Assembly: GCA_028279985.1 (NCBI GenBank)
Contig: JANQMR010000016.1
Location: 186,001 to 250,000 of the forward strand
DNA: 64,000 bases
Direction of reading: 5' to 3'
DNA from: Woeseiaceae bacterium
GTDB taxonomy: Bacteria > Pseudomonadota > Gammaproteobacteria > Steroidobacterales > Woeseiaceae
Below the pieces are notes generated by a model, which was not told the origin of the DNA, searched no databases, and saw only the letters and a list, made by a program, of their open reading frames with translations. Made by a program: the position numbers and the translations under genes. Below are positions 5,671 through 64,000 of the stretch, in pieces (within the stretch, counting starts at the first letter, position 1; each line of letters opens with the position of its first letter).

Positions 5671-5735
5671 CGTATCCTCGTCCTGTTCGAATTGGTGTCT
5701 ATGGCCTGAATTATGGGGGCGCTTGCTTACCATTA

Positions 5736-5790: not shown

Positions 5791-5838
5791 CCGCGGATAA
5801 ACTAAGTCGCGCCTCGCGCTCACCCTCGGGAAATAGAC

Positions 5839-9174: not shown

Positions 9175-9231
9175 AGTTCGGTCTGCCGTGTGTGAGTACT
9201 GCACAAGTTTGCCACTTCCACCTTACCGCTT

Positions 9232-9295
9232 CCTGACACGTACCAATAACAATGTCAGGCTACGGCAAGCGTCAGCGGTGAGAATTGGTGTATTT
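9232..9295. promoter_or_regulatory. Composite regulatory element, copy 2
   Basis: Inverted repeat CCTGACA (9232-9238) and TGTCAGG (9253-9259), 14 bases apart, followed directly by CTACGGCAAGC (9260-9270) and, after 15 extra bases, TGGTGTATTT (9286-9295). It has the same parts and order as the element at 5736 and again lies in a divergent intergenic region. The last block is 38 bases before the start of the DsbD-TlpA fusion gene. Confidence 0.6.
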
Positions 9296-9333
9296 CGAGG
9301 GCCGGAAAGGCCTGACTTTGCGGAGAAATACCC

Positions 9334-45019: not shown

Positions 45020-45020
45020 C

Positions 45021-46472: not shown

Positions 46473-46506
46473 GCGATTTCCTAAATAAGCACGCTGCCAA
46501 ACTCGA

Positions 46507-47766: not shown

Positions 47767-49319
47767 CAGTAGCTCATCCATACCGATTTCGTTTCAAGAT
47801 AGGCATCGAGCTGCTCCGGGCCCAGCTCGCGCCCATATCCGGAATGTTTCACGCCCCCGAACGGCAGCGAGGGGTCGACCGGGTTGTGTGTATTCACCCA
47901 GACAATGCCGGCACGAATTCTTGGCACCATGCGGTGGACTTTTCGTAGGTCGTTCGACCAAATGCTTGCCGACAGACCGAAGTTGCTTGCATTTGCGACT
48001 TCGATGACGGCGGTTTCGTCCTTGAACGGCGCTGCAACGAGCACCGGACCAAAAATCTCTTCGTTTACGACACGCATCTCGTCGGATGTATCTGCCAATA
48101 CCGTCGGCCTGACGAAGAAGCCGGCGTCGGGCTTCGAGTCGGCCGATGTCGCAACACTTGCGCCTTCGCTAATGCCGATGTCGATGTAATCCTCAACGCG
48201 AACCTGCTGCTCGCTGGAAATCAGCGGGCCCATTTGACAACCGGGCGCCACTCCAGGCGCCAGCCGGATACCATCGGCAATAGCCGCTACGTCGGCGATA
48301 ACTTCGTCGTAGATGTCCTGGTGGACATAAAGCCGCGAACCTGCCGTACACACCTGTCCCTGGTTGAAAAAAATCGCACCGGCTGCGCCCTGTGCCGCGG
48401 CAGCCGTATCGCTGTCGGCCAACACGATGACAGGCGATTTGCCGCCGAGCTCCAGAGTGACGCGCGCAAGCGTATCCGCTGCTGCGTGCGCAATCGTGCG
48501 CCCTATACCCGTGGACCCAGTGAATGCAATCTTGTCGATACCTGGGTGTGACGCGAGCGCCGCGCCGGCAGAAGTGCCGGTGCCTGTTACGACATTGAGT
48601 ACGCCTTTCGGGAAGCCGACTTCCTCGGCAAGTTCCGCTAACCGCAGAACCGACAGTGATGTCTGCTCGGCCGGTTTCAGGACTATCGTGCACCCCGTCA
48701 CAAGTGCCGGCACGATCTTCCAAGACGCCATTCCCAGCGGGAAATTCCATGGAATGATTGCGCCGACGACACCGACAGGTTCCTTTGTCGTGTACGCGAA
48801 GTGATCGCCAGGCACGGATACATTTGTCGTGCGGCCGTCGATTTTGGTTGCCCAACCTGCCATATACCGCATCAGACCCGCAACGCCATTGACGTCGATC
48901 TGCGATTCGCCGATAGGCTTCCCGTTGTCCCGCGTCTCGAGCTCGACGAGCTCGTCGAAGTTCTTCTCGACGAGATCCGCCAGGTTGAGCATTAGCTGCT
49001 GCCTGTCCGCCGGCTTCATCCTTGACCATTCCGGCGATTCGAATGCTCGCCTTGCGGCATCTACGGCAAGGTCGATATCCATGGGCCCGCCGGCGGGTAT
49101 GTGACCATGTTCATTGCCTGTCGCCGGATCGAAGACGGGGAGTGTTTTTCCTTCAACGGCATGGCGCCACTCCCCGGCGATGAACATCTTGTGGTCGCGG
49201 CCGATATACGCCGTCACATCGGCGCTGTAAGCTTCAAATTCTGCAACCGGCACGTTTGCCTGTTTCACTATAACTTCCGCATCGTCAAGCCTGCCAAATC
49301 CCTTCCCGAGTAAAGTCAT
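47766..49319 (-). CDS. Aldehyde dehydrogenase, aminoaldehyde/phenylacetaldehyde type
   Basis: 517 residues. GVVGAIIPWNFPLGMASWKI, FTGSTGIGRTIAHAAAD, general base in VTLELGGKSPVIVLADSD, catalytic Cys in FFNQGQVCTAGSRLYV, C-terminal PFGGVKHSGYGRELG. An N-terminal extension of about 40 residues precedes the usual start, so GTG/ATG choices downstream are possible; ATG 49319 overlaps the aminotransferase stop by 35 bases. Placed right after the aminotransferase, it probably oxidises the aminoaldehyde (for example 4-aminobutanal to GABA). Confidence 0.9.
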   Translation of the reverse strand: MTLLGKGFGRLDDAEVIVKQANVPVAEFEAYSADVTAYIGRDHKMFIAGEWRHAVEGKTLPVFDPATGNEHGHIPAGGPMDIDLAVDAARRAFESPEWSRMKPADRQQLMLNLADLVEKNFDELVELETRDNGKPIGESQIDVNGVAGLMRYMAGWATKIDGRTTNVSVPGDHFAYTTKEPVGVVGAIIPWNFPLGMASWKIVPALVTGCTIVLKPAEQTSLSVLRLAELAEEVGFPKGVLNVVTGTGTSAGAALASHPGIDKIAFTGSTGIGRTIAHAAADTLARVTLELGGKSPVIVLADSDTAAAAQGAAGAIFFNQGQVCTAGSRLYVHQDIYDEVIADVAAIADGIRLAPGVAPGCQMGPLISSEQQVRVEDYIDIGISEGASVATSADSKPDAGFFVRPTVLADTSDEMRVVNEEIFGPVLVAAPFKDETAVIEVANASNFGLSASIWSNDLRKVHRMVPRIRAGIVWVNTHNPVDPSLPFGGVKHSGYGRELGPEQLDAYLETKSVWMSY

Positions 49320-50694
49320 CCATTGTCATTTCGATCGCGTTTTTCAGTACGTCGACGATTTCATCAATCTCTGCCGTCGACATCGTAAGCGGCGGCGAAA
49401 GAATGATGTAATCGCCAACGTTGCGGGCGATGACACCCTGCTGATAGGCGTGGTCTGCGATGCGCTTACCGACAGCCACCGAGCTCTCGAAACAAGTCTT
49501 CGTCTTCTTGTTGCTGACCATTTCGATCGCCAGCATGAAATGGCTTCCGCGAGTGTCGCCGACGATCGGAAGATCTCTTAGTTCGCCGAGTCGCTTTTCA
49601 AAGTACGGCCCGGCTGAACGAACGTGCTCACAGAGCCTTTCCGACTCGATGATCTCGATATTCTTGAGTCCTGCGGCGCAGGCGACCGGATGACCTGAAT
49701 AAGTAAAGCCATGACTAAACGGCTTACCGCCGATTTCGGGTGAGCTCAAAACCTCGAATATCTCGTCGGAGAAAAGTGTAGCGCCGAGCGGTATGTAGCC
49801 GGAAGAAATTCCCTTCGCCGTCGTAATGATGTCCGGCAGTACATTGAATACGGCCTCCGAGGCGAAGAAGTGCCCGAGTCGGCCGAACGACGTTACAACT
49901 TCGTCGGATACATAGAGAATATCGTTTTGCGTGCAGACCTCCTTGGCACGACCGTGATAACCCTTTGGCGCCACTTTGACGCCGCCCGCGCCGATGATGG
50001 GTTCGGCGATAAAACACGCAATGGCGTCGGCGCCGACTTCAGAGATCGTCTTTTCCAAATCCCGAATCAGAAGATCGCAATAGCCTTCTTCATTCATGCC
50101 GTCCGGGCGACGATACATGTTAGGTTCGGTTGTGTGGTGAATAAGCGGATCCGGCCCTTCGAGCAATGTATGAAAACCGTCGTGGTTCGGTCTGATGCCG
50201 GTAAGAGATGCGGCGAGGTAGGTGCTTCCATGATAGGCATTCTCGCGAGCGACGATCTTGTTCTTGGACGGACGGCCTTGGCGATTGAAGTAGTACTGGG
50301 CGAGACGTACCGCAGTATCGTTGGCGGCCGATCCGCTACAGGTAAAGAACACGTGGTTTATATCGCCTGGCGCGAGTTCGGCCAGCTTTGCCGCGAGATT
50401 CGCGGCCGGTGGCGACGTCATATCCGTAAACGTGTTGTAATACGGCAAAGCGGATGCCTGCTCTGCAATCGCCTCTGCCATTTCTTGCCGCCCATAGCCG
50501 ATATTCACACACCACAATCCGCCGATGCCGTCGATAAACTTGCGACCGTCATCGGATTCCACGACGATGCCGTCTGCCTTCGTGAAAATTCGTGAGCCGG
50601 TTGTATTGAATTGCGGGAACTCCGCGAACGGGTGCAGCAGATGTCTGCGATCATTTCGCCATACTTGCGAACCCCGTCCCACATTATTTTTCAT
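49285..50694 (-). CDS. Class III aminotransferase, SpuC/putrescine-pyruvate type
   Basis: 469 residues. N-terminal HLLHPFAEFPQFNTTGSRI, GIGGLWCVNIGYGRQEMAEA and PYYNTFTDMTSPPAANLA follow the SpuC-type diamine:pyruvate aminotransferases. PLP lysine in ITTAKGISSGYIPLGATLF, the Asp in LYVSDEVVTSFGRLGHFF. VFFTCSGSAANDTAVRLA binds the phosphate. Likely converts putrescine (or a related diamine or omega-amino acid) with pyruvate to an aminoaldehyde and alanine. It follows aguB by 29 bases and overlaps the aldehyde dehydrogenase start. Confidence 0.88.
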   Translation of the reverse strand: MKNNVGRGSQVWRNDRRHLLHPFAEFPQFNTTGSRIFTKADGIVVESDDGRKFIDGIGGLWCVNIGYGRQEMAEAIAEQASALPYYNTFTDMTSPPAANLAAKLAELAPGDINHVFFTCSGSAANDTAVRLAQYYFNRQGRPSKNKIVARENAYHGSTYLAASLTGIRPNHDGFHTLLEGPDPLIHHTTEPNMYRRPDGMNEEGYCDLLIRDLEKTISEVGADAIACFIAEPIIGAGGVKVAPKGYHGRAKEVCTQNDILYVSDEVVTSFGRLGHFFASEAVFNVLPDIITTAKGISSGYIPLGATLFSDEIFEVLSSPEIGGKPFSHGFTYSGHPVACAAGLKNIEIIESERLCEHVRSAGPYFEKRLGELRDLPIVGDTRGSHFMLAIEMVSNKKTKTCFESSVAVGKRIADHAYQQGVIARNVGDYIILSPPLTMSTAEIDEIVDVLKNAIEMTMDDFTREGIWQA

Positions 50695-50723
50695 TCGAGC
50701 GTTTTCCTAATTGCAGTTGAGTG

Positions 50724-51590
50724 TCACGATCCGTCCAACGTGAGTAACTTTCCATAGAGTTCCGGACGGCGATCCCGGAACATCCCGAGGTTGTTTCGCC
50801 GTCTCAGGGCTACATCGGTATCAATCGTACTCACTATGGTCATGTCGCTTTCCTGATCTCCCTCGACGACGATCTCCCCAAGATGATCTGTAACGAACGA
50901 CGAACCGTAGAAACGCAGTGAGTTCTCCGCCGAACCCTCGACACCCACCCTGTTTGATGCTACGACCGGTATGACGTTCGCGGCCGAATGGCCCTGCATG
51001 GTTCGCTGCCAGTGCCTGCGCGATTCCGTATCGTCACATCCCAGGTTGGACCCGATGGCCGACGGATACAGGAGAAGATCCGCTCCCTCGAGAGCCATGA
51101 TTCGGGCCGCTTCCGGGAACCACTGATCCCAGCATATGGCAGTACCGATTTTCCCGTACTTCGTTTGCCACACGGCGAACCCCGTGTCGCCCGGATTGAA
51201 GTATCGCTTCTCCCAGTACCCGGCGGCCTGTGGAATATGCGACTTTCGATAGGTTCCGAGAATGGTGCCGCCTGCGTCGATCATTACCAGACTGTTGAAA
51301 TACGATTTGTTTGCACGTTCGTACACGCTGACCGGCAGGACGACATCCAACTCGGCGGCCAGGTCACTCATCGTTCGAACGGTGTCGTTGCCGGAAACTG
51401 GAGACGCGAGGTCGAAGAACTTATCGTCATGCTCCCGGCAAAAGTACTCAGTCTCGAAAAACTCTTGCAACAGGATAACTTGCGCACCTTTTGACGCAGC
51501 TTCACGCACCAGTGCTTCGGCGTTGCGGACATTTCTCTTCTTGTCTGTCGTGCATGACATTTGCGTGGCTGCAACCGTAAGGGTGGTCAT
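50724..51590 (-). CDS. aguB: N-carbamoylputrescine amidase-like carbon-nitrogen hydrolase
   Basis: 288 residues from ATG 51590 (AGAGG site nine bases upstream). Nitrilase superfamily triad: Glu in LLQEFFETEYFC, Lys in LGTYRKSHIPQAAGYWEK, Cys in GTAICWDQWFPEAARIMALE. SRRHWQRTMQGHSAANVIPV and PVVASNRVG are strongly AguB-like. Reaction: N-carbamoylputrescine to putrescine, CO2 and ammonia. The name is assigned by similarity; beta-ureidopropionase is a related possibility. Second gene of the leftward operon, 14 bases after the symporter. Confidence 0.85.
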   Translation of the reverse strand: MTTLTVAATQMSCTTDKKRNVRNAEALVREAASKGAQVILLQEFFETEYFCREHDDKFFDLASPVSGNDTVRTMSDLAAELDVVLPVSVYERANKSYFNSLVMIDAGGTILGTYRKSHIPQAAGYWEKRYFNPGDTGFAVWQTKYGKIGTAICWDQWFPEAARIMALEGADLLLYPSAIGSNLGCDDTESRRHWQRTMQGHSAANVIPVVASNRVGVEGSAENSLRFYGSSFVTDHLGEIVVEGDQESDMTIVSTIDTDVALRRRNNLGMFRDRRPELYGKLLTLDGS

Positions 51591-51604
51591 TTCTACCTCT
51601 CCGT

Positions 51605-52939
51605 TCAATCCAGGGTTTCTTCAATTCTCTGCCTGACTCTCTTATGTTTCGCCTCCGTCAGCGGGTACTTCCATAAGATGACCGCCGCGGGAATAAGCAA
51701 GGCCACCGGCAGTAAGTTTCCAACGATCTTTAGCGAAAAGAGAGCCAAACCCTCGTTCGAGGCTCCCGCCGTGGCGTCGAATCCAAGTACATCGAGAAGC
51801 GGTAAGCCAATGGCGACTCCGGTAGCCATCGCAACTTTCCACACGAGATTGAATGCGGCCATGTAAAGGCCCGTTTGGTCGCCACCGCCACTTAGCTGTC
51901 CAATGTCTGCGGCGTCCGCAACCATCGATGTCGGAATCGCCCAAAACCCCGAGATTGACAAACCGACTATCGCGTAGCCGACGGCGGCAAGCATGAAGTT
52001 GCCGGCCGGAATGAGCGCGATCACGATGCATCCGGTGGCGAACAGTAGTCCGGAACACGCGAACATTCGGTGTTTCCCGAACCGACTCGCCATGACGACG
52101 GTAAACGGCGTGAAGATGATCGCGCAGATATAGTCGATTGCGAGTAACTTCGGAAATGCACCCGGAAGCTGCAAGCTTCGCTCAACCACAAAAAGCATCG
52201 GCACTTCGAATAGCGCCAGCGCCGTATCCCACAAAAAGAATGCGAGCAAAAACAGACGAAACGGCTTGTTCTTTGCCATCGTCGAAAAGACGTCGCGCCA
52301 CGTCACTGCCGTTCGCGAAGGATGATTCGGCTCGGGAACCGCGACGATGGCCACGATCACCGCGATGGGTAATAGGAACACCAGAACATTCGCATACAAC
52401 CGTAACACCGATGCAGGCTCTGCGTCGTCGCCGAGGAAGATGACGGGTAGCATCGACGCCGCGAGGATTCCGATCATCGATCCGAAACTTCGAAACCCGA
52501 CAATCCGGCCCCGTTCGCGGTAATCCGGCGATAGGTCGGCCGCCCATGCCATATGCGGAATTTGTACGACGGTCCAAAACGTATAGAAGCAGATCAAGGA
52601 GATGGCGAGGTAGGAAAGCGTTGCCGTAGCGGGAGGTACTTGGAGGAAATAACTCGCTACAACGAGAAATCCCGCACCAAACAACATCCACGGCTTTCGC
52701 CGCCCGAGTCTTGTCTGTATTCGATCGGAAAGCCCGCCGACGACCGGATCGCTGATCCCATCCCATAGTCTTGCAGCCAGGAAGACCAGACCGGTGGCCG
52801 TTAGACTAAGGCCCAACTCCTGCGTGTAGTACGCCGGAATCCAGAGAATGATCGGAATCCAGAGAAAGCTGAGCGGTGCAGCCGGAAAGCCATACGCCAG
52901 CAACCTGGTGTTCGATAAACGCTCCTTCTCTTTGGACAT
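51605..52939 (-). CDS. GPH-type major facilitator symporter
   Basis: 444 residues, 12 membrane helices. Helix 2-3 region AARLWDGISDPVVGGLSDR and RLGRRKPWMLFGAG are the GPH/MelB signature; SGGGDQTGLYMAAFNLVWKV near helix 10 is also typical. It is the first gene of the seven-gene leftward operon, so it is probably the inner-membrane importer for its substrate, with the TBDR upstream as the outer-membrane step. The 168-base gap to the TBDR gene can hold its promoter. Confidence 0.88.
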   Translation of the reverse strand: MSKEKERLSNTRLLAYGFPAAPLSFLWIPIILWIPAYYTQELGLSLTATGLVFLAARLWDGISDPVVGGLSDRIQTRLGRRKPWMLFGAGFLVVASYFLQVPPATATLSYLAISLICFYTFWTVVQIPHMAWAADLSPDYRERGRIVGFRSFGSMIGILAASMLPVIFLGDDAEPASVLRLYANVLVFLLPIAVIVAIVAVPEPNHPSRTAVTWRDVFSTMAKNKPFRLFLLAFFLWDTALALFEVPMLFVVERSLQLPGAFPKLLAIDYICAIIFTPFTVVMASRFGKHRMFACSGLLFATGCIVIALIPAGNFMLAAVGYAIVGLSISGFWAIPTSMVADAADIGQLSGGGDQTGLYMAAFNLVWKVAMATGVAIGLPLLDVLGFDATAGASNEGLALFSLKIVGNLLPVALLIPAAVILWKYPLTEAKHKRVRQRIEETLD

Positions 52940-53107
52940 CGGTTGACTAACTCACTTTAGTTCCGGACTTGCACAGGTTTCCGGTGTGATGTCCGGGAGG
53001 TCGAACTAGTGCTGCTGTATTGGCCGAAGGTGTCCGCCGTAAGGCCCGGACGATCCCGCCGATCCTGTTTCGTAGCACACGAAAGCAGTTGCCGTTTTTG
53101 CGGCTGT

Positions 53108-55357
53108 CTAGTTCCAGTTGTAGCTTGCGGATATTCCGTAGGTCCTCGAGTAGCCGGCTGTCTTGAGTACTGCACCCAGACCGATCAAGTCGTTTATATA
53201 CTGCGTGTATTCTTCATCTGCCAGATTTTGGACAAACAAGGAAACGTCCCATCTACCGTCGTCTGCCATCAAACCTACTCGAGCATTCAATAACACGTAG
53301 CTATCGATGGCAGCTACCGGTGTATTCGGTACTTCACCGAACTGATCGCCCTTGTAAGTTCCGTCAAACTGAAAATAGACTTCTTTGTCGGTTGCAAATG
53401 CTTGTTGATATCGCGCCAACCAGTTACCTTGCCACTCCGGCGTGTAGTTCAGGTTGCTGCCGTTCAGGTTTTCGTTGCCTACTGCCGCGTTCGTTAGCTC
53501 AGTATCCGAGTAGGCGATTCCTGCGCGAATTTCCAAAGCATCCGTAGGCAACCACTTGATGTCGGATTCCGCACCGAAGACGTCTGCATCTGCACCGTTG
53601 TTGAATCGAAAGACAGTGAACGACCCGCCTCCGGGTAATGGCAGTGTTTCACCGATTTGAAGAATTACATCCTGATAGTCGTACGCATAGATGGACGCGT
53701 TCCACTGCAGACGGCCATCGGCCAAGGTTGCCTTCGTTCCGATCTCGTATGCGATCAGTATTTCCTCGTTGAATGGCTGCAGTTCCGCATCCGAGAACGC
53801 CAGATTGCCGTTGAAGCCGCCACTCTTGAAGCCCTTGGATACGGTTCCATAGACCAGCCAGTCATCGTCCGGGAAGTAGTCCAAGCCAAGCTTCCAGGAG
53901 ATATCGTCGAAAGATATCTCATCGGTCAGTGACGCGAGAATCACCGGCGGGTCGAACGACACGCCTTCACCGCCTATGACTGGCGGCGTAATCGTGGCCT
54001 CCGTAAATCCGTCAAATGACCGCTCTTCGTTGGTGTAACGAAGGCCGGTCGTTAGTCGGAACGTATCCGACAGTTGCCACTCTCCGCTGGCGAACAAAGC
54101 GATGGAGTCGGATTCTTGGACATAGATCGCATTCAAGCCGCCGGGAGCCGGGAAATCGGTACCTAGGAATTCCTGTTTCGGCGTATCGATCTTGTCGCTT
54201 GAGTAGTATGCACCGACAATCCAGCCAAATGAACCGTCGCCGTAGGAAGACAATCTCAATTCCTGGCTGAATTGATCGATTTCGTTTTGAAAGAGGTCAT
54301 CGACAATGATTTGCGGAAAACCGTCGGCGTCTTCTGCCGAGAACCGCTCCAGATTGCCGTACGCTGTAATCGACGTTAACCGGAGGTCGCCTACGTCCCA
54401 GTTGACCGCGACATTTACTCCCACACTTTCCAAGATCTGTGAATTGGGCAGCCCGAGACTGCTGGTAAACGGGTCGTTATCAATCTCCTGGTTTCCGAGC
54501 AGGTCGAAGCAATCGGCTTCTCCTCCCTTCAATGATCCATCAAGATACGCCGGGCACGGTGCCGTCCCGGCCGCATTCAAGGCCGGCAACATATTGTATT
54601 GGGCCCCCTCCGAATCTTCGCGACCGCCATGGACATTCAGGTTGATGTCCAGCGTGTCTGACGGTGTGAAGTTGAGCTGCGCGCGAAGGCCCCACCATTG
54701 ATCGATGCCGCCCAGGTCTCTGTTCAAGAACCGGCTGTACCAAGGTCCGTCGTCTTGTGTCTTGTAAAATCCCGATACGCGGCCGGCAACCGTGTCCGTC
54801 AGACCGCCGTTGAGATGAAAATCGACTCGGGCCGCGCCGTAACGCCCGTAGGTACCGGTGACGCCGGCGTCGAACTCCTGGCTTGGTTTCTTGCTAAAGA
54901 AGTTGACCGCGCCGCCTGTCGTATTTCTTCCGAAGAGCGTGCCCTGTGGCCCTTTGAGTATTTCGACGCGTTCCATATCGAAGAGCCCGAAATTGAGAAA
55001 CGCAGAAAACGACTGATATACCTCGTCCAGATGAACAGCCACGGGAGAGCTGTTGTTCGGCGCGAAGTCGTTCAATCCTACGCCCCGCAATGCAAAGTTC
55101 GGCAAGTTACTACCCACGGAGTAGCTCACAACCAGGCCTGGCGTCTGCATCATCAAATCGCGCGGATCGTCGAAGCCGAGTTGATTCAGGTCGTCGCCGC
55201 TGAGCGCAGTGATTGTGATACCCACATCCTGAACGCTTTGTTCTCGCTTTTGTGCGGTGACGACCACTTCTTCCAACACCTGACTTTGAGCAATCGGAGT
55301 GCAAAGTACGCAGGATGCGAGAATGGGCAGCGAGAGGAATTGCTTACTTTTGGACAT
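53108..55357 (-). CDS. TonB-dependent outer-membrane receptor
   Basis: 749 residues from ATG 55357 (AGGGGGAAACCT upstream). Signal peptide to about residue 25 (ASCVLCTPIAQSQ). TonB box VLEEVVVTAQKREQS, plug with LRGVGLNDFAPNNSSPV, VHLDEVYQ, MERVEILKGPQGTLFGR. Barrel to the end (SRTYGISASYNW). A double cysteine site in CPAYLDGSLKGGEADC may form a loop disulfide. Classic CirA/FepA-like length, without STN domain. Likely brings in the nitrogen compound handled by the operon downstream (inference). Its own leader carries two palindromes. Confidence 0.92.
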   Translation of the reverse strand: MSKSKQFLSLPILASCVLCTPIAQSQVLEEVVVTAQKREQSVQDVGITITALSGDDLNQLGFDDPRDLMMQTPGLVVSYSVGSNLPNFALRGVGLNDFAPNNSSPVAVHLDEVYQSFSAFLNFGLFDMERVEILKGPQGTLFGRNTTGGAVNFFSKKPSQEFDAGVTGTYGRYGAARVDFHLNGGLTDTVAGRVSGFYKTQDDGPWYSRFLNRDLGGIDQWWGLRAQLNFTPSDTLDINLNVHGGREDSEGAQYNMLPALNAAGTAPCPAYLDGSLKGGEADCFDLLGNQEIDNDPFTSSLGLPNSQILESVGVNVAVNWDVGDLRLTSITAYGNLERFSAEDADGFPQIIVDDLFQNEIDQFSQELRLSSYGDGSFGWIVGAYYSSDKIDTPKQEFLGTDFPAPGGLNAIYVQESDSIALFASGEWQLSDTFRLTTGLRYTNEERSFDGFTEATITPPVIGGEGVSFDPPVILASLTDEISFDDISWKLGLDYFPDDDWLVYGTVSKGFKSGGFNGNLAFSDAELQPFNEEILIAYEIGTKATLADGRLQWNASIYAYDYQDVILQIGETLPLPGGGSFTVFRFNNGADADVFGAESDIKWLPTDALEIRAGIAYSDTELTNAAVGNENLNGSNLNYTPEWQGNWLARYQQAFATDKEVYFQFDGTYKGDQFGEVPNTPVAAIDSYVLLNARVGLMADDGRWDVSLFVQNLADEEYTQYINDLIGLGAVLKTAGYSRTYGISASYNWN

Positions 55358-55387
55358 AGGTTTCCCCCTAAATGACGTATGGATGGA

Positions 55388-55405
55388 ATCGGACCTTTCT
55401 CCGAT
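55388..55405. promoter_or_regulatory. Perfect 6-bp palindrome with 6-base spacer
   Basis: ATCGGA (55388-55393) and TCCGAT (55400-55405) flank CCTTTC. It lies 31 bases upstream of the TBDR start codon, where a repressor bound in the leader could block transcription. Confidence 0.35.
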
Positions 55406-55427
55406 CCAAGAAGAATCCATAGAAACC

Positions 55428-55457
55428 GTTTAAAATCGACAATAATCGAGATTAAAC
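55428..55457. promoter_or_regulatory. Imperfect 30-bp palindrome, possible TetR operator
   Basis: Outer arms GTTTAA (55428-55433) and TTAAAC (55452-55457), inner arms TCGA (55436-55439) and TCGA (55446-55449), with two mismatched positions on each side and a CAATAA centre. It lies in the TBDR promoter region, 140 bases from the TetR gene. The size and symmetry suit a TetR-family dimer pair. Confidence 0.45.
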
Positions 55458-55597
55458 AAGAAAAGCAAGCATTTTCTGGCAGTTATTTTCGTGCAAGGTG
55501 GTTATTTGTCGATTTTTATTGGTTTTTGCGTCGAGAATTGAAGCATCGCGTACGCCGGGAAGTCTCCGCGATCAGGTGGTGAGTTTGATTCCGGCCT

Positions 55598-56257
55598 CTA
55601 CCGGCCTTGCGCTCTTCTGTCCAGAATCGGCGGAAGGTACTCGGACAAATAGCCGATCGTGATCCTTTTGGCTTCTTCAACGGCACGTGAGGAGATCCGG
55701 CCACTCTCCATAACGGATAGGGAATAGACGAGATCAGTGATTTCCAGCACATAGAACCACATCGTTCGCTTGTTGCTTAGCGTCGGTACGACGAAATGGG
55801 TGGACAAAATGGAGTCGAATATCTCTGCGACTTTGTGGAAGTTTCTGCAGTCCGAAGAATGCTTGACCGCCGCTGGTACCCTCCCTGCAAGCAAGAGGCT
55901 GACGGCGGCAGGGTTTGCCCTATAGATGTCAACCGAGCGTTCGAGAATCAGCCCGACAAGGTCTGTCCACGTGTCCTTCTCGGCGACTTGATAAGGTTCT
56001 TGGTGAGCCTGGACGAAACGATCGCCGAGAATTTCCGCGACATCTTCAAATACGCCGAACTTGTTCGTATAGTAGTGATATGCCGATGCAGCGGGAACGG
56101 CGGCTTTTTCGCATATGTCGTTAAAACTGATCTCATCCGGCCGGCTATCGACAAGTAATTCCAGCGCTGCTTTTTGCAGCACTTTTCGGCGTTCGACGCC
56201 ACGTGCATACTTCGTGGCGCTTTCACGTTTCTCGCCTAACTTGTTTCTGACTGCCAT
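55598..56257 (-). CDS. TetR-family transcriptional regulator
   Basis: 219 residues. N-terminal helix-turn-helix (about 25-70: VLQKAALELL, ISFNDICEKAAVPAASAYHYYTNK), then a helical ligand and dimer domain with ETDLVYSLSVMESGRISSR-like ending. The YHYYTNKFGVFEDVAE phrase is typical. It is transcribed toward the TBDR and polyamine operon and very likely represses one or both; candidate operators are at 55388 and 55428. The ligand is not predictable. A ribosome site before ATG 56257 is weak. Confidence 0.9.
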   Translation of the reverse strand: MAVRNKLGEKRESATKYARGVERRKVLQKAALELLVDSRPDEISFNDICEKAAVPAASAYHYYTNKFGVFEDVAEILGDRFVQAHQEPYQVAEKDTWTDLVGLILERSVDIYRANPAAVSLLLAGRVPAAVKHSSDCRNFHKVAEIFDSILSTHFVVPTLSNKRTMWFYVLEITDLVYSLSVMESGRISSRAVEEAKRITIGYLSEYLPPILDRRAQGR

Positions 56258-56645
56258 TCGAAAGAATTATCCAGAATCGAGAATCGATTGCCAGCCGGGT
56301 AACCGTCTCAAGATAGACAACTGTAGCCCGGATCACAACTGCGACGGGCGTATGGGTAGATACAACGACATTCCGTGTCCAGTTTCTCTTGCAGTGGAAC
56401 GATATGTGAATAATCGGTGGGTAGCGGCGGCGGACCTGAGGTGGTCCGGTGAATGTCCGCCGTCTCCCGGTCGAGGTTCTGATCGACGCGCCGGCAGCCG
56501 ATGACGACGAGTGCGCGCTGCTCGAAGGGGCCGCGTGAACCAACGACATGAGCTTTTGCAGCCGTTGATTACTTTTCCTACTTCGATCGCTTGCTTAGTG
56601 GGCGCTGAACACAAATAATGGGTCCGGGCTATTCGATTGGATCCA
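56258..56645. other. Divergent promoter region of TetR and GntR genes
   Basis: 388 bases with no convincing gene. It must hold promoters for both regulators. A short frame from GTG at about 56441 (29 residues, MNVRRLPVEVLIDAPAADDD, ending at 56529) looks coding-like but has no recognised family and no ribosome site. The VanR-type operator at its right end overlaps the GntR start. Confidence 0.5.
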
Positions 56646-56647
56646 AT
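56636..56647. promoter_or_regulatory. VanR-type operator, perfect 12-bp palindrome
   Basis: ATTGGATCCAAT, a perfect palindrome, overlaps the first two bases of the GntR start codon (56646). The same 12 bp is the operator known for the vanillate regulator VanR of Caulobacter (from memory). A near copy lies at 57521. It suggests tight self-repression. Confidence 0.75.
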
Positions 56648-57314
56648 GGGCTCAGAGCTGGCAGGCAAGCCGAGAACGACCGCAGAGTGGCTTTTTCACG
56701 AGTTGCGCGATGCGATCATTCGCGGCGCGTACCCGGCGGGAAGCCCGATCAGGCAGGATGAAGTCGCGTCGAAGTACGAGGTCAGTCGAATGCCGGTCAG
56801 AGAGGCGATGCGCCGCCTCGAGGCAGAAGGACTCGTCAACCAGCGTCCTCACCGTGGTGCCGTCGTTGCCGACCTGGACGCGGACGACGCCTTGGAGCTC
56901 TTCGAAATCCGGACCGAGCTCGAATCGCTTGCGGTCCGGCGTTCGTTTCCCCGATTGGACGAAACCCAGATTGCCGCAATCGAGTCCTCGCATCTCGCCT
57001 TGCAAAAGTCGTCGAAGAAGCAAATTCTTCAACGCCATCGGGATTTTCATCTGTCGCTATACGTCGGTGCCGGAAAGAGACTTCAGAAGCTCATCGGTGA
57101 ACAGCTAGATTCCTCGCAGCGTTACCACCTGCGCTTCGGCCGGCCCGAGATGGAAGTTTCCAGACGGGACATGCAGGAACACCGGCAGCTAGTGGTTGCC
57201 GCCAAGAACCGTGATGTCGAGACTGCAACCCGCATCATTCGGGAGCACGTCGGCGGCGGTGGGGCTGCCATTGCAAGATCCATCGAAGAAAGAAGCAATA
57301 AGAATAAACAATAA
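56646..57314 (+). CDS. GntR-family regulator, FCD type, VanR-like
   Basis: 222 residues from ATG 56646 (TTG 56637 is possible; neither has a clear ribosome site, so leaderless translation may occur). N-terminal winged helix about 10-75 (FHELRDAIIRGAYPAGSPIR), recognition helix VSRMPVREAMRRLEAEGLV; the SRMPVR form, instead of the common SRTPVR, is also found in VanR. C-terminal FCD effector domain (about 85-215: ELFEIRTELESLAVRRSF, HRDFHLSLY, EHRQLVVAAKNRDVETA) has the His/Asp pattern that binds metal and a carboxylic acid. It probably represses itself and the S41-TBDR locus, and is released by an acidic or aromatic ligand (inference). Confidence 0.9.
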   Translation: MGSELAGKPRTTAEWLFHELRDAIIRGAYPAGSPIRQDEVASKYEVSRMPVREAMRRLEAEGLVNQRPHRGAVVADLDADDALELFEIRTELESLAVRRSFPRLDETQIAAIESSHLALQKSSKKQILQRHRDFHLSLYVGAGKRLQKLIGEQLDSSQRYHLRFGRPEMEVSRRDMQEHRQLVVAAKNRDVETATRIIREHVGGGGAAIARSIEERSNKNKQ

Positions 57315-57571: not shown

Positions 57572-60064
57572 ATGCGATGCCATGAACGCAGTTTGAAGGG
57601 GCGGGAATTCGGCGCTACAGGGGCGATACGCCGCTTTTTCGTGCTCGTTGTCCTGACCGCAGTATTCACGAATCCGGCTCGAGCCGATGACCTATCCAAT
57701 GACCTATCCAATGACGTGTCCGATGAGGTATCCAATGAGGCATCCAGCGGGACGGTCGGGTATCCGGAATCGCTCATTCGCATCTGGAGTACGGTGCGAG
57801 TATCCCATCCTTGGGTCGGAGAAGACCTGTCGGGATGGGATCGGGCCTTCGTAAAAGCCGTCGAGCAGTCCCTGGACGGCGCGGATTGCGATTCGTTCGG
57901 GCTTGCACTTAGAGAAATGTTGGAATCCCTCGGGGACCCGGAAACTCGCGTGGCCCAAGCTCGAAATCGGAACGATGCCGGATTGCAACCGGTCGTCGCC
58001 GAGCGAGCGATAAGGCCAGCGCTGTCCTGGCTCGACGAGCAAACCGCGATCATCGACGTAAGAGACTGGCTGGGCTTGACCATCGGTGCAGGCGGGCTCA
58101 ACGCGATGCACAATCCCATGTTCGTCGACGTCTTCGCCGAAGCCGAATCCGCCAGGACGCTTGTACTCGACCTTCGGAGAACGGACCGGCCTGCCGGCGC
58201 CGGCGGTTTCGATAGCGGCGCATTCATGCTCTCGGCCGTTCTGCGTCGCGAACTGCCGCTAATCCTTAAAAAACCGCTGGTAATGCCGACAACGGCGAGC
58301 CGCCAACACTACGGATACTCGAATCAGGGCATCACGAGTGAGTTCTATCACTCCGGCCACTACATACGCGACCACAAGCTCGTCGAAGCGGAAAACACAA
58401 ACGCCGGGAAACCTGCCGCTATCGCGGTTTGGATAAACGAACCCGAGTCGGATGCTCACCTTGCAATCGTTGACCTGATCGCAGCGCTTCAAGACTCCGG
58501 CAACGGTATCGTAGTTGCCGCTTCAAAGCGCGCAACGCATGTCGACCCTTATGCGTATCCGGTTCCGGTGTTGACGGCATGCGGATTCGAAGCGCGCCTT
58601 CGCACGTCGGTGATGGTCAACTCGGACGGTTCGTTCGGGTTCTCGCCTGCCGCGTTCGTTCAAGCGGGCGGCTCGGACAAGTTATGGCTCAATGCGACCG
58701 AAGAAGCGTTCGTTTCCGATACCGGAGACAGGCCTGCCGGCGGGCGCAGGTTTCCGCTCGTCGCCGAGAGTGATCCGAAGTACGAAGGCATGCGCGAGTT
58801 GTCCGTCGGATATCGATTGCTCGCTCTCGCGAAATTCTGGTCGGCGTTCAATCATTTCTCACCCTACAAGGAACTGACGGATCGGCCCTGGGACGCGACG
58901 TTGGCCGAATTCATACCGAAGTTCATTGCTGCAAGAGATGACCTGGAGTATGCAAAGTTGGTCGCGAAGCTCGGCGTCGAAACGAATGATTCGCATACGA
59001 GTATCTCGGCGCCGGCATTGACGGAGTACTTCGGAACGGCAACGGTACCGATAATCGCGAGAGAAATCGAAGGCCGGAGCGTGGTCGTTTGGACCGGTGA
59101 CGATGAAGCGCTCATGGACGTCGAACGAGGCGACATCATCGTGTCGATCGACGGGCAGGCGGCCGCGGATCGATTGTCCGATTTGCTGAGCTTGACGCCC
59201 GGATCGAATCGCGCGGCCCGAGTCAGGAATGCCCATTCCAGGATGTTCCACGGTCGGCCGGGTTCCCTGGCTAGCATCACATTGAAAGACGGCGACGGCC
59301 GAAGCAGGAAAGTTACGATTCGGCGAACAGATGGAGCCGCAGGGCGCTGGGTGCTCTACCGCGCTTCGAAAACAGCCGACGCCGCCGCGATCGTTTCCGA
59401 CGACATTGGATACATCGACATCCCGAGAGTCGGACCGGCAGACCTGGAGGGCGTCATCGAATCGACCGCAGGCGCCCGCGACTTCATCTTCGATATGCGC
59501 GGTTATCCAAATCTGCCGGTAACCGATTTTCTCGCCGAGCTCTCGGACTCGAGTGGGGTAGGCGCACTAATCGCGGTACCGATCGTGCGCAGTGTCAGTC
59601 AGGACACAAGCACCAAAGAAGTATCGAGACAACGTTTTTTTGCTGACGCAGACGCTCCGATTCCCGGCCACGTCGTCATACTCGTCAACCGTTGGACCCA
59701 GAGCGCGGCCGAGCATGCGGCGCTGTTTTTGAAGTCTGCGTTCGGGGATCGGGCGGTCATCGCAGGTGAGCCATCGGCCGGCGCCAATGGAACGATTACC
59801 TATGCCTATCTGCCCGGCGGCGTGACCGTGTCGTTCACCGGGATGAGTGTCGCATGGGCGAACGGAGACAAGCTTCAGCGTCTGGGGATTATCCCCAATA
59901 TCGTCGCGCGGCCGACGATCCGGGGTATCAGGGAGGGCCGCGATGAAGTGCTCGAAGCCGCCATCGCTCATCTCGAGTCCGTCCGATCGGTTAGCTCCGG
60001 GAGCGTGAGCAAAGTCGGCGAGTTCGCTGACGACGGACTCCGGTACCCGGGTACCGAAAGATGA
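57572..60064 (+). CDS. Two-module S41 family peptidase with N-terminal four-residue repeats
   Basis: 830 residues. Signal peptide (about 15-38, FFVLVVLTAVFTNPARA), then five four-residue repeats (DDLS NDLS NDVS DEVS NEAS). Residues about 50-400 and 405-830 are two copies of one fold: each starts with an IRIW/ALAKFW helix, an HP or PY turn and a DLEYAKLVAKLG-like helix. The second copy has a PDZ-like segment (RGDIIVSIDGQAAADR), DMRGYP, and the catalytic Ser711 and Glu714 in WTQSAAEHA, followed by GEPSAGANGT, as in S41 C-terminal processing peptidases. The first copy lacks the SAAE motif (EPESDAHLA instead). Start ATG 57572 has no strong ribosome site. Role: degradation of imported or surface peptides (inference). 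Confidence 0.88.
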   Translation: MRCHERSLKGREFGATGAIRRFFVLVVLTAVFTNPARADDLSNDLSNDVSDEVSNEASSGTVGYPESLIRIWSTVRVSHPWVGEDLSGWDRAFVKAVEQSLDGADCDSFGLALREMLESLGDPETRVAQARNRNDAGLQPVVAERAIRPALSWLDEQTAIIDVRDWLGLTIGAGGLNAMHNPMFVDVFAEAESARTLVLDLRRTDRPAGAGGFDSGAFMLSAVLRRELPLILKKPLVMPTTASRQHYGYSNQGITSEFYHSGHYIRDHKLVEAENTNAGKPAAIAVWINEPESDAHLAIVDLIAALQDSGNGIVVAASKRATHVDPYAYPVPVLTACGFEARLRTSVMVNSDGSFGFSPAAFVQAGGSDKLWLNATEEAFVSDTGDRPAGGRRFPLVAESDPKYEGMRELSVGYRLLALAKFWSAFNHFSPYKELTDRPWDATLAEFIPKFIAARDDLEYAKLVAKLGVETNDSHTSISAPALTEYFGTATVPIIAREIEGRSVVVWTGDDEALMDVERGDIIVSIDGQAAADRLSDLLSLTPGSNRAARVRNAHSRMFHGRPGSLASITLKDGDGRSRKVTIRRTDGAAGRWVLYRASKTADAAAIVSDDIGYIDIPRVGPADLEGVIESTAGARDFIFDMRGYPNLPVTDFLAELSDSSGVGALIAVPIVRSVSQDTSTKEVSRQRFFADADAPIPGHVVILVNRWTQSAAEHAALFLKSAFGDRAVIAGEPSAGANGTITYAYLPGGVTVSFTGMSVAWANGDKLQRLGIIPNIVARPTIRGIREGRDEVLEAAIAHLESVRSVSSGSVSKVGEFADDGLRYPGTER
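57686..57745 (+). repeat. 12-bp coding repeat, five units
   Basis: Five 12-base units of the form gatgacctatcc or aatgaggcatcc encode x-D/E-L/V/A-S four times over, plus DDLS. They follow the signal peptide cleavage site of the S41 protein directly. Unit length is a multiple of three, so copy number can change without a frameshift. Confidence 0.85.
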
Positions 60065-60142
60065 ACACTGCGTCATCGTTCGCATCAACAATCATCAAGT
60101 TCAGTTGCGCCGGAAAGGTGCGCCCGACGGGGGGAGGTTCTT

Positions 60143-62539
60143 ATGATAATTAAAAATGGGACAAACACATCGGTCTCCAGATCGGAATATGCATTCCTGA
60201 GACCGCTATTGTCGATAGCGTTTGGAGCTGCCGTTTTTTGCATTTGGGGGCTTGGCGGCAGCGCCAATGCGCAAGAGATCGGCGCGGAAGAACAGGAGAT
60301 CCTGGACGAGATTATCGTAAGGGGTCGAAAGCGTGTGGAGTCTCTGCAGAACGTCCCGTCTTCCGTTTCCGTAGTCGATGGCGAAGATTTCGAACGATTC
60401 GGAGGGCGGAACCTCCGAGATATCGAGTTTCAGTTGGCAAACGTCGATTTCTTCGATCAATCGAATCTGGTCAACAACATCGTCTCCATTCGCGGCATAG
60501 GAACGAATACGCGAAGCGCCGGCCTTGAAACCGGAACCGCATACTATCTCGACGGTGTCCTGCTCAACAGGCCCGGGCTGTTTTCTCTTACGACGAACGA
60601 CTTGCAGAACATCGAGGTCTTCAGGGGGCCTCAAGGCACGGAATTCGGTCGAAACGCGCTGGCTGGCGTCTTCTTTGCAACATCGGGCAGGCCGACTGAC
60701 GAATGGATGTATCGCGGCATGCTCGGCTCCGGCAACTTCGAGTACTTCGAAACCTCACACGTCGTCAGTGGGCCCATCGTGAAAGACAGGCTCGGGATAC
60801 GAGTGAGCTATCAAGAGCAGGCTCGAGAAGACGGCTACATCGAGAATTTCGAGGGCGAAAACGCCGGGACCACGGACCAGGTCGCCGCGAGACTCCATCT
60901 CACGTGGGCTCCGGGAGATTCGACTACCGTGGAGCTGATCGGCAATTTCGCGGAGGACACCATCGACTTCAACACCTTGGAAAACTTCGTCCAGGAGAAC
61001 CCTGTTTTCGGCGCACAGTACGGCTGCGAGTATCCGGATGTGGCGACGGTAGATTTCGGTCCGCCATTCGGCGTATTCGAGTTTCCGTGCATTCCCGTTC
61101 CCGGGCCCCGCACGATCGCGGTCGCAGACCCGGTGTTTCAAGAGTCCGAAACCTCCGGTGTCCAGCTAAACCTCGAGCATGAACTGCAGAACGGTTGGAC
61201 TATTCGATCGATCAACGCGCAGTACGACAACGAAACGGAGTTCCCGTTTTCCCTCGCACCGGGACCGCAGGCTTCCGGCACCGAGGCCAATTTCGCAGAC
61301 GACGCCAAGCAGTTCAGCTCCGAGCTGCAGTTCATTTCCCCGGTAGGTTCACCCACGGGAACGCAATGGGACATGGTTGGCGGCTTGTTCTATCTCAATG
61401 AGGAAGTGGTGAGTAATCGGGTAGCGGATTTCGGCGCGCCCAGTATTCCCGTCGTAGACGAGAACGGAATTCCCACTGGAGAGTTTCTGAGCCTTCTGGG
61501 CCAATACGGCAGTCAGGAGCTCGACAGCTTCGCGGCCTACGTCAACGGCAACTATTATGTCGGAGACTTTACATTCAACGCAGGAATACGTGCATCTCGC
61601 GAGGAGCGGGATGCTACCCAGAGACAAGAAGGGAGTATTCAGTTCTTTGTCGGCCGCTTTATTACCCGATTATCCAGCCTGAAGGAGGATGTCGTAACCG
61701 GCACGCTGTCTGTCGGCTACGACTTTTCACCCGATGTGAAGACCTATGCCAAGTGGGCGCGCGGTTTCAAGCCCGGTGGCGTGAACCTCGACTCAACCGG
61801 TCCGATAGATACTTTCGGCATTCCGGCAGCCTTCGACAATGAAAGCAGTGACTTGTTCGAGTTGGGTTTGAGATCGACGCTGAACCGCAATCTGAGCTTG
61901 AACGTCACTGCTTTCTACCAGATCTACGAGGATCAGCAGAATACGATCTTGTTGCCTGGAAGCCCGCAGGCCGATCCGTCACAACCTGACGGCAACATCA
62001 TCGTCAATATCGGCGATGCGACGTCCAAGGGGGTGGAGCTGGATCTCAGATACACGCCGACAGAGGCACTGAATATGTCGCTGGCCTACGGATACGTCGA
62101 TGCCAGATACGACGAGAGTCAGCCGCGGAGCGATACCGTTGCCGCAATCGACGCGGTCATCGAAGGTTTCGCCGAGGGTATTGCGGGTTCCCCGTTGCCT
62201 TACTCGCGGCGGCATACCGGGATCGCGGATGCTTCCTATGTATTCGGGCTCGGCAAAGCCGGAAGCGTCATGTTGAGAGCGAATTACAGCTATCGTTCTC
62301 CAGCCGCCTCGGCGACCGCAAACAGCGGGGTTGGAACCGATGCGGTGCGCAATCTCAACGGCTTCGTTACGTGGACGAGCCCACAAGCTGCCTGGCAAGT
62401 CGAGATGTGGGGCCGAAATCTCACCGACGAGACCTACCTGCTCAGCGTTTTCGGAAACAGCTTTACGGGCGGCGCCTTTGGGGGCTCGTATAACGCCCCG
62501 AGAGAGTATGGGTTACGCGTCCGGGCGTACTTCGATTGA
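60143..62539 (+). CDS. TonB-dependent outer-membrane receptor
   Basis: 798 residues, ATG 60143 with GGGGGGAGG upstream. Signal peptide (about 20-44, ending GGSANAQ). TonB box DEIIVRGRKRVES, plug with SIRGIGTNTRSAGLETG, YYLDGVLLNR, NIEVFRGPQGTEFGRNA. Barrel ends ARGLRVRAYFD-like (EYGLRVRAYFD). Two cysteines in YGCEYPD and EFPCIPV probably pair in an outer loop. It stands between two S41-type peptidase genes, 78 bases after the first and 77 before the second, so all three look like one transcript under GntR control. Confidence 0.92.
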   Translation: MIIKNGTNTSVSRSEYAFLRPLLSIAFGAAVFCIWGLGGSANAQEIGAEEQEILDEIIVRGRKRVESLQNVPSSVSVVDGEDFERFGGRNLRDIEFQLANVDFFDQSNLVNNIVSIRGIGTNTRSAGLETGTAYYLDGVLLNRPGLFSLTTNDLQNIEVFRGPQGTEFGRNALAGVFFATSGRPTDEWMYRGMLGSGNFEYFETSHVVSGPIVKDRLGIRVSYQEQAREDGYIENFEGENAGTTDQVAARLHLTWAPGDSTTVELIGNFAEDTIDFNTLENFVQENPVFGAQYGCEYPDVATVDFGPPFGVFEFPCIPVPGPRTIAVADPVFQESETSGVQLNLEHELQNGWTIRSINAQYDNETEFPFSLAPGPQASGTEANFADDAKQFSSELQFISPVGSPTGTQWDMVGGLFYLNEEVVSNRVADFGAPSIPVVDENGIPTGEFLSLLGQYGSQELDSFAAYVNGNYYVGDFTFNAGIRASREERDATQRQEGSIQFFVGRFITRLSSLKEDVVTGTLSVGYDFSPDVKTYAKWARGFKPGGVNLDSTGPIDTFGIPAAFDNESSDLFELGLRSTLNRNLSLNVTAFYQIYEDQQNTILLPGSPQADPSQPDGNIIVNIGDATSKGVELDLRYTPTEALNMSLAYGYVDARYDESQPRSDTVAAIDAVIEGFAEGIAGSPLPYSRRHTGIADASYVFGLGKAGSVMLRANYSYRSPAASATANSGVGTDAVRNLNGFVTWTSPQAAWQVEMWGRNLTDETYLLSVFGNSFTGGAFGGSYNAPREYGLRVRAYFD

Positions 62540-62616
62540 CAGCGACAGGGCCCGGCATCTATTTCTCGGTGCCGAGAACCTTGCCGGGTCGTCCTTACCT
62601 GAATTGGTGGCGAATC

Positions 62617-64000
62617 TTGTGTACTACTAGGAAAAGTCTTGCGGCTACTCTGCTGCTGCTGCTGAATGCCGGCGTTTTCGCAGAGCCAGCAGTGTCCTCC
62701 GAAGTCTCCCCCGAAGTCTCCCCCGAAGTCTCCCCCGAAGTCTCCCCCGAAGTCTTCTCCGAAGTCTTCTCCGAGGTCTTCCCCGAGGTCTTCCCCGAGG
62801 TCTTCGATGAAACGGTGGATCGCCTTGATGCCCTGGGCCGTATCTGGGGCCAGGCGAGGTACTTTCACCCCGGCATCTTCGAAGGCCAAATCGACTGGGA
62901 CGAGGCGGGCATCGAGGCTATTCGGGCGGCCTTGAATGCGCCGGACAGGGCTGCTTTTCGCGGTTCCGTAGCCTCGATGCTCTCCCGGCTCGGCGATAGC
63001 AACAGCCGGGTGGTTCCCGCCGGCGGCGCGGGCGAAGGCGCCGGAGCCGATCATCGCTTCGTCGCGCAAGAGAAGCCGGTCGTCGAGCGGCTCGACGAGA
63101 ATACCGTCCTCGTTCGAGTCAATGATTGGACCGGCTTGTCGACTCGTGTGAACCCCCTGGCGGCGAACGTTTTTGACGAGGTTTTGCCTCAGATCGTGGA
63201 TCTTCCGCATCTGATCTTCGACTTTCGTCGCTTCGATCAGCCGGTTCCGGGACCTTTGGATCTGGGAGCGTTCGTCATCTCCCGCTCTGTCCAGAACCTG
63301 GTCTCGAAGCTGTCTCCCGCGGATCTGATCCTGCCGTCGGTTGCTCAGGTGATTCACAGCGGGTATCCGAGCGAACGATGGCGTACGGACAACTACTACA
63401 CGGCGACGATCAGGAGAAATCACCAAGGTCTGGCCGCCGCGGAGAGTGTACCTGGCGAACGGTTTATCGTCTTTGTCCACGATGAACATGGAGGGGCGAT
63501 AACGCCGTTTGCGAATGCTCTCGCGCAAGCCGGGGCCGGCGCGTCGATTGTCGAGGGTAACGCAGGTAGTGCGGGACCTTCGTCGACCGTGCCCTTGCTC
63601 GACGAAGGGTATAGCGCGGTCATCAGCACGTCGATGCTTGTCAACGCAGACGGGTCGCGCGGTGCCATCGTCGCGAAGCAAGTCGAGACGCCGGGTGCTG
63701 AAGCGAAGGGTGATGCGGCGCTTGCCGCGGCAATGCTTGTCGTTACAGAAAGATATTCAGGCAGCCAGGGAGAGGGATCCGATACTCCCCTTGTCCAGAT
63801 TTTCGAATCGAGCTCTCAAACCGGCGCCAAGTTGTCTGTCGAAGAACGCGTCCTGGCCGCATTCAAACTCTGGAACGCGATCGAGTTCTTTTTTCCGTAT
63901 CACGATTTGACCGATCAGGACTGGGATTCCGCGCTAAAAGCGGCGATCCCGGCATTCATCAATGCCGATACCGACATCGAGTATGCGAAAGCAGTGGCTG
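62617..64000 (+). CDS. S41-like two-module exported protein, 3' end outside window
   Basis: Open to the window edge (461 residues seen). Start TTG 62617 is chosen because it has GGTGG six bases upstream and gives a clean signal peptide (MCTTRKSLAATLLLLLNAG). Then follow nine four-residue repeats (EVSP, EVFS, EVFP). Residues about 70-400 are the same S41-like module as the first half of the 57572 protein (RIWGQARYFHPGI, LGDSNSRVVPAG, LIFDFRRFD, VIHSGYPSERWRTDNYY, STSMLVNADGSRG), and a second module starts at FKLWNAIEFFFPYHDLTDQD. The nucleophile region of the first module (HDEHGGAITPF) has no Ser, so it is probably inactive. Paralogue of the 57572 gene. Confidence 0.8.
   Translation, partial: MCTTRKSLAATLLLLLNAGVFAEPAVSSEVSPEVSPEVSPEVSPEVFSEVFSEVFPEVFPEVFDETVDRLDALGRIWGQARYFHPGIFEGQIDWDEAGIEAIRAALNAPDRAAFRGSVASMLSRLGDSNSRVVPAGGAGEGAGADHRFVAQEKPVVERLDENTVLVRVNDWTGLSTRVNPLAANVFDEVLPQIVDLPHLIFDFRRFDQPVPGPLDLGAFVISRSVQNLVSKLSPADLILPSVAQVIHSGYPSERWRTDNYYTATIRRNHQGLAAAESVPGERFIVFVHDEHGGAITPFANALAQAGAGASIVEGNAGSAGPSSTVPLLDEGYSAVISTSMLVNADGSRGAIVAKQVETPGAEAKGDAALAAAMLVVTERYSGSQGEGSDTPLVQIFESSSQTGAKLSVEERVLAAFKLWNAIEFFFPYHDLTDQDWDSALKAAIPAFINADTDIEYAKAVA
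62701..62808 (+). repeat. 12-bp coding repeat, nine units
   Basis: Nine tandem 12-base units: gaagtctccccc four times, gaagtcttctcc twice, then gaggtcttcccc twice and gaggtcttcgat. They encode EVSP x4, EVFS x2, EVFP x2, EVFD, directly after the signal peptide of the S41-like protein. The identical first four units suggest recent expansion. Confidence 0.9.

Follow-up and report, generated by a model that had tools for sequence, protein, structure and literature searches.

Two large proteins of the S41 peptidase family, encoded on either side of a TonB-dependent receptor (TBDR) gene in a Woeseiaceae bacterium, each consist of a degenerate S41 module without a PDZ domain followed by a PDZ-containing S41 module. 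The genes, here called S41-A and S41-B, lie at the end of a 64,000-nucleotide stretch (contig JANQMR010000016.1, positions 186,001 to 250,000; hereafter the window). Proteins of this two-module type form a widespread S41 subfamily, one that we found neither named nor described, whereas among the genomes searched the sandwich of a TBDR between two such proteins was found only here; the novelty seen by the initial annotation of this DNA, which knew of no system with this layout, has to be divided accordingly. The three genes are as follows.

57572..60064, + strand: S41-A, two-module S41 protein of 830 amino acids with a signal peptide by eye (open reading frame (ORF); paralogue of S41-B)
60143..62539, + strand: TBDR of 798 amino acids, plug and barrel (PF00593, 1.9e-38; PF07715, 1.3e-17)
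62536..64000, continuing to equivalent 65049, + strand: S41-B, two-module S41 protein of 837 amino acids counted from TTG (ORF; paralogue of S41-A)

The source contig is 317 kb long; sequence past the window end was included, with positions given as window equivalents, and the S41-B ORF, which the window cuts, is complete in the contig. All ORFs lie where they had been placed, and S41-A and S41-B are indeed paralogues, with 31% identity over 814 alignment columns. Their parts are arranged as follows.

57687..57746, + strand: 12-bp tandem repeat, 5.0 copies, in the linker after the S41-A signal peptide
57755..58726, + strand: first module of S41-A (approximately residues 62-385), a helical part and a degenerate S41 catalytic fold, no PDZ (profile comparison, model)
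58793..59977, + strand: second module of S41-A (approximately residues 408-802), a helical part, PDZ and S41 catalytic fold (Pfam, model)
62699..62805, + strand: 12-bp tandem repeat, 8.9 copies, in the linker after the S41-B signal peptide
62818..63765, + strand: first, degenerate module of S41-B (approximately residues 95-410; sequence comparison)

The repeat-coded linkers are of the SNDLSNDV and SPEVSPEV type and differ in length between the two proteins. By sequence alone, Pfam detected only the second modules of both proteins and gave no match in the first. PF03572 scored 42.9 and 52.8 bits in the two second modules (curated cut-off, 24), covered residues 612-778 of S41-A, and was matched by every member of alignment A2, which holds S41-A and 23 relatives and to which all residue counts out of 24 refer. 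Comparison of family profiles from A2 aligned the first module with the second at an hhalign probability of 99.3% (E = 5e-20), and at 97.4% (E = 1.5e-11) once the helical part common to both was removed. In the predicted structure of S41-A (predicted TM-score (pTM) 0.80, mean predicted local distance difference test (pLDDT) 77), one succession of strands and helices appears twice, as read from the list of elements, except that the first module lacks the segment in which the second has its PDZ domain. Modelled alone (pTM 0.74, mean pLDDT 74, with several weak loops), the first module of S41-A retrieved 30 chains from the Protein Data Bank (PDB) with Foldseek at E ≤ 1e-3, 28 of them S41 peptidases, putative peptidases or IRBP (1j7x, 7jti) by title; the other two are from 4y68, a streptococcal lipoprotein whose family the match record does not state. 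TM-scores by query length were modest for this model (0.26-0.46). Among the 50 matches listed for the whole S41-A model were 4ghn, CtpA, CtpB, D1P, CPAF, Prc and RBP3. The claim that both proteins repeat the S41 fold, for which structure prediction had been proposed as a check, is therefore confirmed, for S41-A by profile and predicted fold and for S41-B by sequence.

The first module has lost the catalytic residues. As the initial annotation had recognized, it lacks the Ser-x-x-Glu motif: S41-A has none in residues 1-410, and the single one of S41-B (residues 337-340) does not align with the nucleophile. At the nucleophile position (300, a register that we counted from a conserved Asn and that adjoins a 7-residue insertion in S41-A), Ser is present in 2 of the 24 sequences, Val stands in S41-A, and Glu three residues on occurs in none. 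The module also lacks the catalytic His, which had gone unnoticed; the equivalent of His475 of the second module is His in a single sequence of the 24. Only 11 of 214 columns in the catalytic part reach ≥ 80% identity, versus 73 of 197 in the second module, a figure somewhat inflated by a scan pattern that falls inside this part. The kept columns of the first module include Asp200 and Arg202, and it carries a motif of its own, His246 (21/24), Gly248 (23/24), Ser256 (20/24) and Tyr259 (23/24), which fits a module freed from catalysis yet with a site or contact still in use. We infer from this residue loss that the first module is catalytically dead, and it may bind or position substrate.

In contrast, the second module keeps Ser and His. 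The codons below were each checked.

58994..58996, + strand: codon of His475, the catalytic His position (24/24)
59702..59704, + strand: codon of Ser711, the nucleophile position (24/24), with Glu714 three codons on
59876..59878, + strand: codon of Gln769, at the position of CPAF Glu558 (Gln in 24/24; alignment to CPAF)

His475, Ser711 and Glu714 are invariant in A2, so that the predicted retention of Ser711/Glu714 holds throughout, and the second module of S41-B, now seen complete, keeps all three as well, its SAAEH having Ser739 as nucleophile. The two-module protein of Hymenobacter shares the His/Ser/Glu/Gln pattern of S41-A. Our scan selected loci with two peptide patterns, both from the latter half of the protein (approximately residues 421-429 and 640-647), where conservation is biased; His475, Ser711 and Gln769 fall outside both. 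Judged by residue conservation, the second module is likely a working peptidase. Tricorn-type S41 peptidases and CPAF, a chlamydial S41 protease, are among the known systems closest to it. CPAF resembles S41-A in joining a PDZ domain to an S41 catalytic fold with the nucleophilic Ser at the equal alignment position, and matches it both in the comparison of sequence profiles (E = 2e-10) and in that of folds (E = 5e-16). The two differ in that a dead S41 module precedes here and that Gln replaces Glu558, and the CPAF equivalog NF033424 was not reached (32 and 45.8 bits for the two S41 proteins; cut-off, 250). In the HMMER alignment, Gln769, which the initial annotation had not pointed out, stands opposite a Glu that by our count lies 59 residues after the CPAF nucleophile; the CPAF triad is given as His105-Ser499-Glu558 (PMC8787135).

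Scanning the genome collection gave 37 loci, at least 24 of which encode the two-module protein (22 by tblastn range, L040 and L048 by their ORFs); L062 is probably a 25th, with a first-module profile match of 6e-77 though tblastn matched its second module only. Hosts of the two-module protein are Acidobacteriota, Bacteroidota, Myxococcota, one Cloacimonadota bin and one Rubrivivax bin; it is also found on a Hymenobacter plasmid, and L037 and L060 are an identical gene from two bins. WP_197031860.1 of Hymenobacter swuensis and its relatives in Acidobacteriota, Bacteroidota and Myxococcota have the same architecture at 22-30% identity to S41-A, and differ in that, in the loci read, they have no adjoining paralogue and no TBDR between copies. 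The first-module profile occurred once in 13 of the 18 genomes behind the scan loci, twice in four and in one not at all; of the four pairs, one is separated by 7.6 Mb and the other three are split between contigs. Adjacent S41 pairs were seen only in this genome and in an Ignavibacteria bin on a more distant branch (L052), whose related long S41 genes (9083-11272 and 11357-13672) encode His as third triad residue and do not enclose a TBDR. For alignments A2 and A3, from which S41-B is absent because the window contains only part of it, 23 of the 37 loci were used; six were dropped as short or cut stretches (L041, L042, L053, L054, L057, L059), L060 for its identity to L037, and seven (L052, L055, L056, L058, L061, L062, L063) because tblastn matched the second module only. 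In the tree, S41-A groups with S41-B as its sister (support 100/99) on branches of 1.46 and 1.8, and the pair falls outside the 24-row main group of two-module proteins; the tree program warned of long branches and of dissimilar composition. As sisters on long branches, they look like the products of an old duplication rather than a recent repeat.

To judge what the two proteins may do, we considered the genes around them.

56637..57314, + strand: GntR/FCD-type regulator (Pfam GntR, 7e-18; FCD, 5e-18)
equivalent 65033-66523, + strand, outside the window: Ere-family protein (Erythro_esteras, 2e-60), for which GTG at 65054 is as possible a start as TTG
equivalent 66531 (GTG start assumed) to 67934, + strand, outside the window: amidohydrolase (Amidohydro_1, 7e-24)
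equivalent 67962-69044, + strand, outside the window: pyridoxal phosphate (PLP) enzyme of the D-cysteine desulfhydrase group (comparison with family models and structure relatives)
equivalent 69208-71292, opposite strand to the S41 genes, outside the window: S9 prolyl oligopeptidase

From S41-A to the PLP enzyme, six genes run in one direction with successive gaps of 78 bp, an overlap, 4 bp, 7 bp and 27 bp, and may be co-transcribed. These distances assume the nearest GTG starts for the Ere-like protein and the amidohydrolase, start codons being our choice; likewise, the S41-B start overlaps the TBDR stop (62536-62539) if TTG is used. Terminator-like sites were not above chance (10 found vs 11.8 in shuffles). 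The GntR/FCD-type gene, 257 bp upstream of S41-A, is probably the regulator of the cluster. The G+C content is uniform throughout the cluster (0.56-0.60, measured in 1.5-kb steps) and so gives no hint that the cluster was acquired recently. Signal peptides were recognized by eye in S41-A, S41-B, the TBDR and the S9 protein, and lipoprotein signals in the Ere-like protein and the amidohydrolase; the PLP enzyme has neither.

The receptor itself scored above cut-off for plug (PF07715, 64.7 bits) and barrel (PF00593, 133.9 bits), and Pfam showed no further domain. At E ≤ 1e-90 it found only itself in 60 relatives and in 398 genomes of the phylum; in the phylum search a relative may have been passed over in TBDR-rich genomes, few candidates being scored in each. 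The best 12 plasmid matches had 26-29% identity and came mostly from sphingomonads; the sole solved receptor at E ≤ 1e-10, the pesticin receptor 4epa (62 bits), does not tell the ligand.

The downstream enzymes are more informative. Relatives of the amidohydrolase among 15 solved structures include prolidase, Xaa-Pro dipeptidase and the L-Arg carboxypeptidase Cc2672, and the nearest relatives of the PLP enzyme are D-cysteine desulfhydrase and the D-cysteate sulfo-lyase CuyA, though it scores below the CuyA cut-off (312 vs 450 bits). The Ere-like protein suggests an ester in the ligand; a second Ere-family gene, 30% identical to it, is found elsewhere in the genome (G000:C21:73136-74266). Taken together, the cluster looks like an uptake-and-degradation system, with exported hydrolases round one receptor and an amino-acid PLP enzyme at its end. 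From the dipeptidase-like amidohydrolase, the Ere-like esterase and the PLP enzyme, our first guess at the ligand is a peptide or depsipeptide with unusual residues. The peptide-like ligand of the initial annotation thus fits these three enzymes and the prolyl oligopeptidase beyond the window better than it fitted the window alone. Its exported, uptake-linked system likewise finds support in the signal peptides and in the receptor within the gene run, though not in any tie of the two-module protein to this layout.

We tentatively propose, at a probability of roughly 40%, an exported TBDR-linked system for the uptake and degradation of a peptide-like compound, in which the dead module would serve for binding or as a scaffold. 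The TBDR would bring in the peptide or peptide-like compound, and S41-A and S41-B, acting alongside it in the periplasm or at the cell surface and differing in specificity, would cut it. Their first modules would hold the substrate in place, and their second modules, with Ser and His kept, would act as CPAF/tricorn-like serine hydrolases. The Ere-like and amidohydrolase lipoproteins would then remove parts linked through ester or amide bonds, leaving the PLP enzyme to degrade a released amino acid in the cytoplasm, with the cluster under the control of the GntR/FCD regulator.

Several observations weigh against this proposal. The amidohydrolase is also near the phenylurea and molinate hydrolases, a kinship by which the compound may be no peptide. 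No promoter was recognized on the + strand, the four promoter-like sites found (4.7 expected) all being on the − strand. Most importantly, the S41–TBDR–S41 layout occurred in no other genome among 99 relatives, 369 genomes of the class and 398 of the phylum (own genome counted; the samples overlap) or in the flanks, as stored, of the 37 scan loci. S41-A matched anything in 13 of the 99 relatives and its full length solely in its own genome; S41-B at E ≤ 1e-20 had hits in 2 of the 369 class genomes, the non-self one covering the second module only; and the first-module profile at E ≤ 1e-15 found one of the 398 phylum genomes, namely this one. Candidates scored per genome were at most two in the S41-B class search and the TBDR phylum search, five for the first-module profile and 17 for the TBDR in 60 relatives.

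The scan loci gave the same picture. At 23 two-module loci no TBDR gene was seen directly adjoining the S41 gene, and a Pfam scan of 96 of the 129 ORFs there (≥ 200 amino acids, within 5.5 kb) found two TBDRs, one on the other strand (L048, 12401-14764) and one 2.6 kb upstream (L049, 4932-7277), each separated from the S41 gene by at least one ORF. A shorter S41 protein on a Hymenobacter plasmid (L026) has an annotated TBDR 3.4 kb away. In a Pfam tally over 87 neighbour ORFs, no family appeared in more than 3 of the 87. The ORFs at the 37 loci were also searched with BLASTP for matches to the proteins encoded in this cluster, and with a profile from five TBDRs of this contig, a weak one that passed over the annotated TBDR in L026 and the TBDR in L049. 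On these neighbourhood tests we rejected a conserved linkage of two-module S41 proteins and TBDRs. The idea that the two-module protein belongs to the TBDR layout is thus not borne out for a protein that is widespread and mostly single-copy, the layout is weak as a conserved system under the refuting condition set by the initial annotation itself (occurrence in this genome only), and the receptor sandwich seems to be a one-off of this lineage.

The same findings favour the leading alternative, unlikely though it is, that an old tandem S41 pair has come to enclose one of many TBDR genes and that the three proteins serve separate tasks. With 61 first-look TBDR-like candidates in this genome, the S41/TBDR adjacency has some chance of being incidental. 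What speaks against chance is the common strand, the tight spacing with its overlap and the run of six genes of related chemistry; moreover, with ~60 TBDRs in a 4.1-Mb genome, a given slot would hold a TBDR in ~1-2% of cases, taking about one gene per kb.

The remaining points against the proposal concern catalysis. The third residue of a CPAF-type triad is Gln769 in all 24 sequences and never Glu; more distant S41 proteins mostly have Gln or His there (Val in L014), and Glu is found in L015 and L003, which are among the most distant. CtpA/Prc-type S41 enzymes use a Ser-Lys dyad. At position 738, which we take to be the Lys site of such enzymes, the residue is Ala in 20, Val in 2 and Ser in 2 of the 24, with no Lys at 736-740. 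Since neither this Lys nor the CPAF Glu is present, activity is uncertain. This would suit a second alternative, slightly less probable again, in which no module cuts and the tandem modules, like IRBP, bind a hydrophobic or peptide ligand from the receptor and hand it on. According to PMC10450429 and PMC11750400, IRBP/RBP3 descends from a bacterial S41 peptidase and is a carrier of retinoids and fatty acids that has lost its catalytic residues. It resembles S41-A and S41-B in its tandem S41-fold modules and, as far as their first modules go, in this loss. The whole S41-A model matches RBP3 (9frx) over 806 columns (E = 2e-16) and the first-module model an IRBP unit (1j7x; E = 1.7e-8). However, the Foldseek root-mean-square deviation to 9frx is 23 Å, so that the modules may be arranged differently. 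IRBP/RBP3 also has four modules and belongs to vertebrates, whereas here there are two in a bacterium and loss of the IRBP type affects the first only; Ser, His and nearby columns of the second are strictly kept. A related conjecture, to which we give no greater weight, is that the widespread tandem S41 lineage independently evolved an IRBP-like layout in which the dead module captures the ligand and passes it to the Ser-His-Gln module, the two diverged copies here serving one TBDR cluster as a capture-and-cut pair. Finally, a role like that of Prc or CtpA in trimming or degrading proteins of the envelope, perhaps including the receptor as the initial annotation had also suggested, is improbable, since for all their shared S41 fold with PDZ and weak similarity to the prc model TIGR00225 (25.1 and 56.4 bits) the scores are far below its cut-off of 218.6 bits, the Lys position is mostly Ala, and the neighbours are catabolic-type enzymes.

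Elsewhere in the window, a run on the − strand (43685-56257) holds, by eye, two aminotransferases, two aldehyde dehydrogenases, an M20-type amidohydrolase, a carbon-nitrogen hydrolase and a major facilitator superfamily (MFS) carrier, together with a TBDR (53108-55420) and a TetR regulator; these genes suggest a pathway for the breakdown of amines or beta-amino acids that has a receptor of its own. Two DsbD-like thiol-disulfide transporters were also seen by eye (9334-12600, and 4787-6919 of locus L009), one of which (1088 amino acids) has an extra C-terminal thioredoxin-like stretch.

S41 proteins are known as processing proteases. A bacterial chain that joins a dead S41 module to a kept one would let the role of the dead module be tested, and the two-module family may offer a counterpart in nature to the change from peptidase to carrier undergone by the vertebrate retinoid carriers, with their tandem modules and lost catalysis. 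The invariance of Gln as third triad residue raises the question of whether a Ser-His-Gln S41 site cuts peptides, and the TBDR cluster described here is one place to seek a physiological ligand.

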